From a virus: a stretch of 23,513 nucleotides of DNA. This document shows, in pieces, positions 2,329 to 18,517 of the stretch (position 1 is its first letter; each line of letters begins with the position of its first letter). The stretch lies in the IMG/VR virus record IMGVR_UViG_3300051212_000938, positions 1 through 23,513 of that record; one strand, written 5' to 3'. The notes beneath the pieces were generated by a model. That model saw only the letters and a list, made by a program, of their open reading frames with translations. It ran no database searches and was not told the DNA's origin. The position numbers and the translations under genes were made by a program.

Positions 2329-2832
2329 TCAGATTGTAATAGTTTTGATTTGTTCTAGAGTAAAGTCTCCAGTATAAATTGCTTGGAGACGATGATTTGA
2401 GTAAATTCCAATACCATTATCAAGTTGAGCAAAGGATACATTGCCTCCAAGGATATCAATACGATCCTCAAATCCAAGATTTGTAATCGTATCCACTTTC
2501 TTATCACACTTAATGAAAGCAATATCCGTTTGACTATCAGCAGTCATAGTATAAGTGTTCTTTCCTTTATCACCATAAAGTCTATCAGCACCAAGACCAT
2601 CAATCAGAATATCATTCTTTTGATATCCATAAATCACATCATTTTGGTCGGTTCCCAAAAGATAATCATTACGACGAGTACCATAGATGTAGTTTGTAAT
2701 AGGATCCTGTTGGATGACGTTTACTACAACATTATTCACAACTGTTGTATTTACAGTTGTTTGTTCATAAATCACAACTTCATCCTTATCTTTATCTTTA
2801 CGATCGTGTTCTTTGTGTTTGTACTTGCTCAT
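2329..2832 (-). CDS. RTX (haemolysin-type) calcium-binding repeat protein
   Basis: The protein has 167 residues when started at the ATG at 2832 (MSKYKHKEHDRKDKDKDE); an in-frame TTG 15 nt earlier overlaps the protease gene. Residues 1-20 are Lys/Asp/His-rich and 24-40 are Thr/Val/Asn-rich. Residues 51-95 hold about five tandem nonapeptides of the RTX type (GTRRNDYLL, GTDQNDVIY, GYQKNDILI, DGLGADRLY, GDKGKNTYT). The segment after them (FEDRIDILGG) resembles the fold after the RTX block in serralysins. The gene starts 5 nt after the metalloprotease stop. Inference: it supplies in trans the calcium-binding half of a serralysin-like enzyme. Confidence 0.8.
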   Translation of the reverse strand: MSKYKHKEHDRKDKDKDEVVIYEQTTVNTTVVNNVVVNVIQQDPITNYIYGTRRNDYLLGTDQNDVIYGYQKNDILIDGLGADRLYGDKGKNTYTMTADSQTDIAFIKCDKKVDTITNLGFEDRIDILGGNVSFAQLDNGIGIYSNHRLQAIYTGDFTLEQIKTITI

Positions 2833-2837
2833 TTTAA

Positions 2838-3359
2838 TTAGTTCCAAATTCCAGTAAGTGTGTCAAGATCAGCAGTTCTCCAAGTAGATGGATAAGAACC
2901 ATCTACTCTATATGCCATCACAGTGTCGTTTGTTGTTGCTCCATTTCCAGCAGGGTTTGTAGTCACATAGTAGTCTCCATCATAATTATCAAATGGATGT
3001 TCAAGTCCAAGAGTGTGTCCAAATTCATGAAGTAAAATCCAAGATTTTGCAGCATCATAATAATCTTTCTTTACTGATACTTCCCAGTGAGAATTATTAT
3101 GATATTGTGCATATCCAGCATAATTGTGACCAGGATAAACTTGATCTTTTTGATAGAAACGAATGTCTGCTTTTTCTGCTTTTTTTCTAAACTTAAATTT
3201 GATGTCCAACATTTTATCTGTATCTTTGACCATTTGTTTTACAAAGGGTTTCATGTCACCTAAGGACTTATCAATATAAACAGTCAAGATGTTTTTATCC
3301 ACAAGACCCTTTGTATAATCAACAAAGGTAGTATCAATCAAATAAGTTGGTTCAAGCAT
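2838..3359 (-). CDS. Zinc metalloprotease, serralysin/M10-like metzincin
   Basis: This 173-residue protein has the metzincin zinc site HEFGHTLGLEH at residues 111-121 (ligands His111, His115 and His121; catalytic Glu112). A Met-turn candidate, TVMAYR, lies near 146-151, and the downstream W/D/L pattern (STWRTADLDTL) resembles the end of serralysin catalytic domains. It has no signal peptide and no propeptide. It is about the size of a bare catalytic domain, without the C-terminal RTX region usual in serralysins; that type of region is encoded by the next gene. It could process virion or host envelope proteins, but the target is unknown. Confidence 0.88.
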   Translation of the reverse strand: MLEPTYLIDTTFVDYTKGLVDKNILTVYIDKSLGDMKPFVKQMVKDTDKMLDIKFKFRKKAEKADIRFYQKDQVYPGHNYAGYAQYHNNSHWEVSVKKDYYDAAKSWILLHEFGHTLGLEHPFDNYDGDYYVTTNPAGNGATTNDTVMAYRVDGSYPSTWRTADLDTLTGIWN

Positions 3360-17194: not shown

Positions 17195-17202
17195 TATTTA
17201 TG
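17195..17202 (-). promoter_or_regulatory. Late-promoter candidate CATAAATA for the giant fibre gene
   Basis: CATAAATA on the minus strand spans the TAA stop (17200-17198) of the small acidic gene, again in the context TCATAAATA. Transcription would start near 17189, leaving a leader of about 28 nt before the ATG at 17161. Confidence 0.55.
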
Positions 17203-17500
17203 AAGTCAAATCCTCCCCATATTCAAGTTCAAAGTCGTCTGGAAGGTCTTCTGGATTTTCTAATTCTACTGGAAACAACATTGGATGTGCTTCTTCATCT
17301 ATAAGGTAGAATGAAGATTTATATAAGTCTTCTGGGTCATATGTACGATTTTTATCTGCTTCTCTACATAATTCCTGATCGTATAAGTGTCCATCAGGCA
17401 TTTCATCGAAGGTAAATGGAACAGAGTTGATAAAATACATCTTCACAATCATACTGCCGTCATTATACCAGCAATATGCGGAGTCGATACGATAAGACAT
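17198..17500 (-). CDS. Small acidic hypothetical protein
   Basis: The protein has 100 residues from the ATG at 17500 (MSYRIDSAYCWYNDGSMIVK). GGGAG lies upstream at a suitable distance, so the in-frame GTG nine bases earlier is unlikely. The first third is beta-like and hydrophobic; the rest is strongly acidic (YDPEDLYKSSFYLIDEE, then NPEDLPDDFELEYGEDLTS). It lies between the HNH endonuclease and the giant fibre gene. No family is recognised. Confidence 0.75.
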   Translation of the reverse strand: MSYRIDSAYCWYNDGSMIVKMYFINSVPFTFDEMPDGHLYDQELCREADKNRTYDPEDLYKSSFYLIDEEAHPMLFPVELENPEDLPDDFELEYGEDLTS

Positions 17501-17521
17501 AGGATTCACTCCCGTATCTTA

Positions 17522-17529
17522 TATTTATT
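17522..17529 (-). promoter_or_regulatory. Late-promoter candidate AATAAATA
   Basis: AATAAATA on the minus strand covers the TAA stop (17527-17525) of the HNH gene and lies 21 nt before the ATG of the 17198-17500 gene. Confidence 0.4.
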
Positions 17530-17986
17530 TTTTGTTCTTACCTCTATAAGTATCCGTTTGTGCGTGACAGTTGGGGCACAAGATACGAAGGTTTTCTAAA
17601 CGATTATCGTGATGGTTGCCGTTTATGTGATCTAATTCTAAGGGTGCTAGTTTTCCGTTCCATTCAGTTATACCACAACACTCACACTTATGTTGTTTGA
17701 GACCTTCTGCTAATAAACGATTTTTTAACCTGAATGATTGAACTACTGAATTTTCTCTTAAATATTCTTTAATATGTCTTTTTGGGCCAATAACTTTTCC
17801 TTTATTCCACGCTTGTCCAGTAAAATGTGAGGTATCAATGCCTAAATTTTGTATTCTTCTATTCGTAGTTTGATAATTTCCTCCAGCAGGAACAATATTT
17901 AACTTATCTAAGACTTGACGAATGCTTGTAGAAGTTTTTACTGCCTCACGAAGTTCTTGTTCGCTATAAGTATATCTGCTATTCAT
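17525..17986 (-). CDS. HNH homing endonuclease
   Basis: This 153-residue protein has a helical N-terminal half (SEQELREAVKTSTSIRQVLDK) that looks like a helix-turn-helix DNA-binding region, with a linker containing HFTGQAWNKGK. The HNH nuclease domain is C-terminal: CECC at 101-104, LELDHINGN with His120 as likely general base, Asn132 in RLENLR, and CPNCH at 137-141. The two Cys pairs would bind structural zinc. It lies next to the tRNA cluster, a common insertion site. Its late promoter sits in the loop of an inverted repeat, so expression appears confined to late infection. It may be a free-standing homing enzyme. Confidence 0.9.
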   Translation of the reverse strand: MNSRYTYSEQELREAVKTSTSIRQVLDKLNIVPAGGNYQTTNRRIQNLGIDTSHFTGQAWNKGKVIGPKRHIKEYLRENSVVQSFRLKNRLLAEGLKQHKCECCGITEWNGKLAPLELDHINGNHHDNRLENLRILCPNCHAQTDTYRGKNKK

Positions 17987-17988
17987 TT

Positions 17989-18028
17989 AAATAGTAAACG
18001 CTACTACTATTTATAAGGTTTACTATTT
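17989..18028 (-). promoter_or_regulatory. Late promoter TATAAATA in the loop of an 11-bp stem-loop
   Basis: AAATAGTAAAC (17989-17999) and GTTTACTATTT (18018-18028) are perfect inverted repeats. The 18-nt loop holds TATAAATA at 18015-18008 on the minus strand. The arm next to the HNH gene ends two bases before its ATG and so covers the ribosome-binding region. Late RNA would begin near 18002 and would lack the upstream arm. Read-through RNA from the tRNA region would fold and hide the start. Confidence 0.7.
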
Positions 18029-18032
18029 TAAG

Positions 18033-18114
18033 TAGGGCGAGCGGGACTTGAACCCGCAAGGCTTGCGCCACCGGTTTTTAAGACCGGAATGTTTACCGAT
18101 TTCATCACCGCCCC
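18033..18114 (-). tRNA. tRNA-Leu(UAA)
   Basis: An 82-nt class II tRNA. Acceptor GGGGCGG pairs with TCGCCCT. The anticodon stem CCGGT/ACCGG encloses CTTAAAA, giving anticodon TAA. The long variable arm contains GGC GCAA GCC, and the T arm is GCGGG TTCAAGT CCCGC. CCA is not encoded. It reads UUA/UUG codons, which are frequent in AT-rich phage genes. Confidence 0.93.
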
Positions 18115-18123
18115 GTGATGTGA

Positions 18124-18156
18124 GACCATTATAACTGTTAAAGTTTGAATGGTCAA
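18124..18156 (-). promoter_or_regulatory. Promoter for tRNA-Leu, with dyad
   Basis: TTGACC (18156-18151), 17 nt, then TATAAT (18133-18128) on the minus strand, in the 43-nt gap between two tRNAs. GACCATT (18124-18130) and AATGGTC (18148-18154) form a 7-bp dyad that overlaps both boxes. GGTCTCA follows the -10, similar to the sequence after the -10 at 8601. Confidence 0.65.
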
Positions 18157-18157
18157 G

Positions 18158-18230
18158 TGCTCCTTGTCGGTTACGATCCGACCTGTGTCCGATTATGAGT
18201 CGGGTGCTTTCACCAGATAGCTAAAGGAGC
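18158..18230 (-). tRNA. tRNA-Met(CAU), elongator type
   Basis: A 73-nt tRNA. Acceptor GCTCCTT/AAGGAGC is followed by discriminator A, and the anticodon loop CTCATAA gives CAT. The G1-C72 pair argues against an initiator; a lysidine-type Ile tRNA is not excluded. The D stem has only 3 bp (GCT/AGC) and the top anticodon pair is C-A. The T loop is ATCGTAA, in which A54 and T58 are swapped relative to the usual T54 and A58. CCA is not encoded. It lies 2 nt from tRNA-Ile. Confidence 0.85.
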
Positions 18231-18232
18231 AA

Positions 18233-18304
18233 TAGGGATACTGGGAGTTGAACCCAGACTAACCCGTTATAAGCAGGCCGCTCTAACCATTAAGCTATAC
18301 CCCC
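18233..18304 (-). tRNA. tRNA-Ile(UAU)
   Basis: A 72-nt tRNA with acceptor GGGGGTA/TATCCCT (two G-U pairs), D stem GCTT/GAGC, anticodon loop CTTATAA giving TAT, and T arm CTGGG TTCAACT CCCAG. CCA is not encoded. It would decode AUA, a codon that is rare in GC-richer cyanobacterial hosts but common in AT-rich phage genes (inference). Its 5' end is only a few bases from a terminator hairpin. Confidence 0.9.
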
Positions 18305-18305
18305 A

Positions 18306-18331
18306 TAAAAACTCAGAATATTACTGAGCTT
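18306..18331 (-). terminator. Intrinsic terminator between the antitoxin-like gene and the tRNAs
   Basis: On the minus strand AAGCTCAG (18331-18324) pairs with CTGAGTTT (18316-18309) around a 7-nt loop, with one G-U pair, followed by TTA. The stem begins in the last codons and the loop includes the TAA stop of the 18321-18494 gene. The tRNA-Ile 5' end lies immediately beyond. Confidence 0.6.
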
Positions 18332-18494
18332 CGTTGTTTAACTCAGTGTGTATTCGTATGAGATCATCATCGGCAGGCATCATAACCGCTGCCTTTCCAT
18401 TCTCATCCACAATACCTATGTGCTCTCCGCTTTCTACTCTTTCAATCAGTTCATCGAATCTTTCTTGAAATTCTTCCACCGTGAAAATTTCCAT
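18321..18494 (-). CDS. Phd/YefM-family antitoxin-like protein, 57 residues
   Basis: The ATG at 18494 has AAAGAAAAG upstream, and the TAA stop lies in a terminator hairpin. The protein begins MEIFTVEEFQERFDELIERV, then ESGEHIGIVDENGKAAVMMP, then DDDLIRIHTELNN. This matches the Phd/YefM layout: an N-terminal strand and helix, a G(E/K)xIxIxxxxGxxAVxxP core and a short C-terminal tail. In that family the N-terminal fold binds DNA and the tail binds a toxin. No RelE/Doc-like toxin gene is adjacent, so it may be an orphan that neutralises a host toxin or acts as a regulator. A late promoter precedes it. Confidence 0.75.
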   Translation of the reverse strand: MEIFTVEEFQERFDELIERVESGEHIGIVDENGKAAVMMPADDDLIRIHTELNNEAQ

Positions 18495-18509: not shown

Positions 18510-18517
18510 TATTTATA
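18510..18517 (-). promoter_or_regulatory. Late promoter TATAAATA for the antitoxin-like gene
   Basis: A perfect TATAAATA on the minus strand, between the stop of the 18526-18726 gene and the ATG at 18494. It implies that the antitoxin-like gene is expressed late, unlike the early-promoter gene before it. Confidence 0.65.

Follow-up and report, generated by a model that had tools for sequence, protein, structure and literature searches.

The window analyzed here is a 23.5-kb IMG/VR virus record (23,513 nucleotides, 36% G+C) whose genes lie on the minus strand. Judged by its sequence, the source virus is a T4-like cyanophage, and Synechococcus phage S-SRM01, a member of the Kyanoviridae, gives its best long match in the phage collection. 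Read along the minus strand, the locus of interest begins with three tRNA genes (18305-18032). The genes for tRNA-Ile (18232-18305) and tRNA-Met (18157-18230) form the upstream part of a putative early tRNA unit, and the gene for tRNA-Leu(UAA) (18032-18114), which is intronless in the window, has its 3′ end 3-4 nt before a predicted hairpin. These are followed by an HNH endonuclease ORF of 153 aa (17525-17986, with its ATG at 17986-17984) and then by a phrog_4134 gene to which no function is assigned (17198-17509, likely ATG at 17500). The 153-aa ORF matches phrog_10822 with an E-value of 2e-53, while its Pfam HNH/HNH_3 match is weak, Pfam HNH falling just under the cut-off. The ORF belongs to a homing-type endonuclease family, and its product may be an active homing endonuclease that gains from acting late.

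In S-PM2, S-CAM1 and S-SRM01, which lack the HNH gene, the phrog_4134 gene lies directly behind tRNA-Leu. Thus, the HNH module is an insertion between those two genes. The late motif of the phrog_4134 gene in the window, AATAAATA at 17529-17522 on the minus strand, overlaps the end of the HNH gene. Two further observations concern other ORFs of the window. A Phd/YefM-type antitoxin-like ORF (18321-18494, minus strand), with TATAAATA at 18517, lies beside the tRNAs, and similar ORFs are found near tRNAs in other cyanophages. Elsewhere, a metalloprotease-like ORF (2329-3359, minus strand) carrying the motif HEFGHTLGLEH is followed by an ORF with repeats that resemble RTX repeats.

The spacer between tRNA-Leu and the HNH ATG measures 45 bases and holds two 11-nt arms, perfect complements of one another, around the T4-type late promoter motif TATAAATA. 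On the minus strand the layout is tRNA-Leu ...CGCCCTACTTA-AAATAGTAAAC-CT-TATAAATA-GTAGTAGC-GTTTACTATTT-AA-ATG. The 5′ arm, AAATAGTAAAC, occupies 18018-18028 with an imperfect extension to 18031, and the 3′ arm, GTTTACTATTT, occupies 17989-17999, ending 2 nt before the ATG, with an imperfect extension to 17986. With these extensions, a repeat search lengthens the arms to 14 nt at 93% (17986-17999 and 18018-18031). An inverted-repeat search also finds an alternative 9-bp hairpin, formed by TAAATAGTA (18013-18005) and TACTATTTA (17996-17988), which is mutually exclusive with the main one, covers the same start region, and needs RNA from upstream of about 18005.

A preliminary description of this locus had placed a perfect 11-bp inverted repeat over the ribosome-binding region of the HNH gene. 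The repeat and its coordinates are confirmed. The ribosome-binding site proper is another matter, as no Shine-Dalgarno sequence is visible before the HNH ATG in the window, nor in the cyanophage leaders, and the hairpin is therefore better described as covering the start region (about -3 to -13). On the window alone the repeat is not significant. A Markov shuffle of the window is expected to yield 0.34 perfect 11-bp repeats with loops of up to 30, the probability of finding at least one is 0.2, and two are observed. Its significance comes from the relatives.

The motif TATAAATA lies in the hairpin loop (18008-18015, minus strand), its first base being 29 nt from the ATG. The proposal that the loop holds a late promoter agrees with published data, in that NATAAATA is the published cyanophage late motif (PMC2984593), and with the complete isolate S-CRM01, which has the same arrangement and encodes gp55, gp33 and gp45. 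Within the window, the coding (minus) strand has 12 copies of NATAAATA and the plus strand one, and several of these sites are 20-41 nt ahead of gene starts. The late promoter consensus is positioned such that late RNA would be without the 5′ arm, the transcription start being predicted from T4 promoter geometry to fall near 18002 (17999-18003).

Directly upstream of tRNA-Leu is a sigma-70-like (early) promoter, TTGACC-17-TATAAT (18128-18156, minus strand), which is conserved in most relatives. This promoter lies within an inverted repeat of its own (18124-18136 and 18142-18154). In the window (18124-18156, minus strand) and in most relatives, the halves of this repeat change together (GACCATT/AATGGTC, GACAATC/GATTGTC and GACTATT/AATAGTC, with AGCA/TGCT and AACT/AGTT in the inner part), and some contigs carry several copies of it.

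We consider it likely that the inverted repeat before the HNH gene acts as an RNA hairpin that times the expression of a free-standing HNH homing endonuclease. RNA started upstream, be it from the sigma-70-like promoter that precedes tRNA-Leu or from a more distant site, would read through the tRNA into the HNH gene, a reading that this conserved promoter strengthens. Such read-through RNA would carry both arms, and the resulting stem, with a 3′ arm that extends as far as the start codon, would block ribosomes. At late times, the gp55/gp33/gp45 machinery would initiate about 6 nt behind TATAAATA in the loop, past the 5′ arm. The late RNA would have no 5′ arm and could form no hairpin, leaving the start open. 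The additional late motif further upstream, at 18517, makes it possible that some late read-through RNA also carries the hairpin. The preliminary description was right to call this logic established in T4, where I-TevI, I-TevII, I-TevIII and segB share the hairpin/late-promoter arrangement, as does mobE of Aeh1 (PMC2988022). Specifically, early I-TevI RNA folds and hides the start, whereas late RNA begins too far downstream to fold (PMC2988022).

The relatives of the window locus comprise 80 viral contigs fetched with the HNH protein, and further protein scans of viral contigs returned mostly the same ones. With one contig cut, 79 relatives are assessable. The HNH gene is directly behind tRNA-Leu(UAA) in 73 of them, the tRNA gene being intact in 53 and split by an intron in 20, and the remaining six are without that context. 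In about 50 distinct leaders, the loop holds the late motif (TATAAATA or a variant) at a fixed distance of 28-32 nt from the ATG, and in most family members the hairpin starts a few nucleotides behind the tRNA 3′ end. The arms pair better with their own partners than with swapped ones among 32 dereplicated leaders (mean 22.1 versus 16.7; 20,000 permutations, p < 5e-5).

Covariation was assessed in a gap-free alignment of 16 leaders that are in the window's register. Compensatory, two-sided changes occur at 10 of the 13 pairs, and 89% of the cells in this alignment are paired, compared with 37-55% for slid partners. The covariation score is 0.518, versus 0.035-0.188 for slid partners, and is reached by no shuffle; the shuffle test is inflated by relatedness, whereas the slid control retains it. 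The preliminary description had staked its reading on the arms remaining complementary in relatives, and this comparison comes out strongly in its favor. In addition, the stems contain 16 G.U versus 4 A.C pairs (p = 0.006, with G.T and A.C scored alike), and this excess of G.U on the transcribed strand points to pairing at the RNA level. The leaders thus appear to hold a hairpin over the initiation region of upstream-started RNA that has been kept by selection on pairing, with weak or broken stems in a few family members (for example, L002, L014 and L023).

The HNH protein and spacer of L004 and L006 are 100% identical despite tRNA regions that are only 35% alike, so that hairpin and HNH travel together. 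Indeed, tRNA-Leu genes with unrelated bodies still precede the same HNH gene and hairpin. We rejected the broader proposition that the entire HNH family has the hairpin and the late motif. The late motif is absent from HNH homologues in other phages (GodonK, LCK69, Michonne, Francesca and others), as would be expected if their promoters differ. In the non-cyanophage homologues L070 and L079 a Shine-Dalgarno sequence is located inside the hairpin, and the loop of L070 holds TATAAT instead of TATAAATA.

Folding calculations predict that the start is hidden in read-through RNA and open in late RNA in all 32 family members. The cost of opening the region from -12 to +5 averages 11.6 kcal/mol in read-through RNA versus 3.9 kcal/mol in late RNA, and is higher in the former in 32 of 32 cases. 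Shuffling the 5′ arm cuts the mean read-through cost for the family to 5.6 kcal/mol. The window shows one of the weaker contrasts (6.1 versus 3.3 kcal/mol, and 7.0 kcal/mol with the 5′ arm shuffled, which is to say not lowered), probably because the alternative 9-bp hairpin can form in place of the main one. Likewise, the main hairpin of the window is modest (z = -1.9).

Stems of this kind are uncommon at other late promoters. The HNH family has a median stem score of 21.5, compared with 12 among 87 other genes whose late motif is similarly spaced (p = 5e-12). In S-CRM01, where the HNH gene is behind tRNA-Leu, its stem is the strongest of 89 late-motif sites (score 32, the next being 23), and the hairpin folds at -25.6 kcal/mol (z = -6.7). 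The S-CRM01 homologue (L082, 1441-1500) has a perfect 13-14 bp stem and an ATT where others have ATG, and the deposited annotation starts the gene within the tRNA.

Among other genes that have a stem of at least 8 bp around the late motif, 7 of 15 encode HNH or GIY-YIG endonucleases; among 96 genes without a stem, at most 11 do so (p = 0.003), where 11 is an upper estimate from family counts. Long stems found by DNA pattern scans that are independent of gene calls belong mostly to this HNH family, with others at GIY-YIG/NUMOD3, endonuclease VII-like and RuvC-like genes, so the device appears to be common to several nuclease families. Other HNH, GIY-YIG/NUMOD3 and endonuclease VII-like genes whose start-codon hairpin encloses a late motif are located at L065 294-668, L062 3715-4164, L268 9855-10559 (minus strand), L301 73-768 (minus strand) and L413 6516-7154. 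A late promoter nested in a start-codon hairpin may be a general signature of phage homing endonuclease genes, and could aid their annotation. The notion that all late genes behind a tRNA have such a hairpin was rejected, in that 16 non-family genes in this position have a median score of 16.5, compared with 23.75, and endonucleases again account for several of their top scores. In HNH-less S-CAM1 (L582, 1083-1120), a 9-bp hairpin surrounds ACTAAATA before the phrog_4134 gene behind tRNA-Leu, so the device is not confined strictly to endonucleases.

An inverted repeat centered on a promoter could also serve as a DNA operator, to which a dimeric repressor, the HNH protein or some other, would bind so as to shut off the late promoter at its center. 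There is precedent for this, because I-TevI represses its own late promoter, and operators lie over the promoters of I-TevI and, probably, of I-TevII and I-TevIII (PMC2988022). However, the arms at the HNH locus vary widely among close relatives yet stay complementary, and the same architecture is found with different arms in unrelated endonuclease families. Moreover, a DNA site should be symmetric, whereas G.U outnumbers A.C by 16 to 4 on the sense strand. An operator role could coexist with a role in RNA, but as the sole explanation it is disfavored, and we regard it as improbable.

More doubtful still is the possibility that the hairpin belongs to the tRNA, as a terminator of the tRNA-Leu transcript or an element in its 3′ processing, with its position before the ATG being incidental. 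Although the hairpin does begin within a few nucleotides of the tRNA 3′ end in most family members, its stem has no U-run after it, and no such hairpin is found behind the same tRNA in HNH-less S-PM2 and S-SRM01. Similar hairpins also precede endonuclease genes that have no tRNA upstream, and the motif-to-ATG spacing of 28-32 nt is conserved. This explanation is very unlikely. Finally, the repeat might have arisen as a palindrome by chance, the leader being rich in A+T, or have been left as a scar when the HNH module was inserted. Such an origin fits the window taken by itself, where an 11-bp repeat is not significant (0.34 expected), but it is scarcely credible in light of the compensatory evolution, the conservation across the family, and stems that are far above those of control promoters.

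The nearest analogue of the proposed timing hairpin is segB, in the tRNA cluster of T4. Like the HNH gene, segB is a free-standing endonuclease gene among tRNA genes, with a start hairpin and a (predicted) late promoter that lets late RNA escape (PMC2988022). The two differ in that segB encodes a GIY-YIG rather than an HNH enzyme, resides in a tRNA-Arg/tRNA-Ile region rather than at tRNA-Leu(UAA), and is carried by a coliphage rather than a cyanophage. The intron-encoded I-TevI, I-TevII and I-TevIII and the free-standing HNH gene mobE of Aeh1 are similar in that a hairpin in early or middle RNA hides the start, whereas late RNA is translated (PMC2988022). In the I-Tev genes, however, a consensus Shine-Dalgarno sequence about 8 nt before the AUG is hidden, and none is seen in the window. 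Furthermore, the I-Tev targets are td, nrdD and nrdB, and not a tRNA. The I-Tev and mobE systems have been studied by experiment, whereas that of the window is known from its sequence.

Thus, the timing switch as such is already known from T4. What appears to be new is a cyanophage form that lacks a Shine-Dalgarno sequence and recurs in dozens of related viruses and with several kinds of endonuclease. No description of a hairpin-timed endonuclease in cyanophages was found in the part of the literature that we searched. The covariation evidence from dozens of lineages would extend a textbook T4 switch to cyanophages.

SegB-type genes beside tRNAs can amplify tRNAs against tRNA-cutting defenses (PMC13096335). 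Those loci resemble the HNH locus in that a homing endonuclease gene is persistently next to phage tRNA genes (PMC13096335), but they involve another nuclease family, and there is no evidence of amplification at the HNH locus.

The adjacent tRNA gene might also be the target of the endonuclease. In 20 relatives, tRNA-Leu(UAA) is interrupted by a group I intron between U34 and A35 (between CTT and AAAA), which is the site used by cyanobacterial tRNA-Leu introns. Of these split genes, 19 were found by splice-site pattern and that of L056 by Rfam; the carriers are L004 (1672-1955) and 19 others, including L010, L023, L024, L030, L034, L047, L056, L065 and L070. The phage intron resembles cellular tRNA introns at 72-83% (BLAST to genome contigs). 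According to a 2014 review, all phage introns then known were in protein-coding genes (PMC3984707). We found no report of phage tRNA-Leu introns in the literature searched, which does not disprove that one exists.

In the huge phage LR756511, an HNH protein of the same family is encoded inside a tRNA-Leu intron, which is evident by sequence although the split intron was missed by Rfam. Together with the introns at the tRNA-Leu(UAA) anticodon, this suggests that the family targets that site in a collaborative-homing arrangement. It is possible, if somewhat doubtful, that the anticodon site of tRNA-Leu(UAA) has its homing endonuclease in this HNH family, whose gene stands alone behind the tRNA in cyanophages and lies within the intron in the huge phage. 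F-CphI and the psbA intron of S-PM2 form a comparable pair, in which the gene with the group I intron likewise has a free-standing endonuclease as its neighbor (PMC3984707; Zeng et al. 2009 as cited in PMC3037559). F-CphI bears a motif of the Endo VII type and has psbA as its target (PMC6083498; Zeng et al. 2009), whereas the window has another HNH family beside tRNA-Leu(UAA), its putative target.

A separate observation concerns the size of some of these tRNA genes. Those with a UAA (Leu) anticodon in L006 (1882-1955), L012, L014 and L033 are only about 74 nt long and are without the usual long variable arm.
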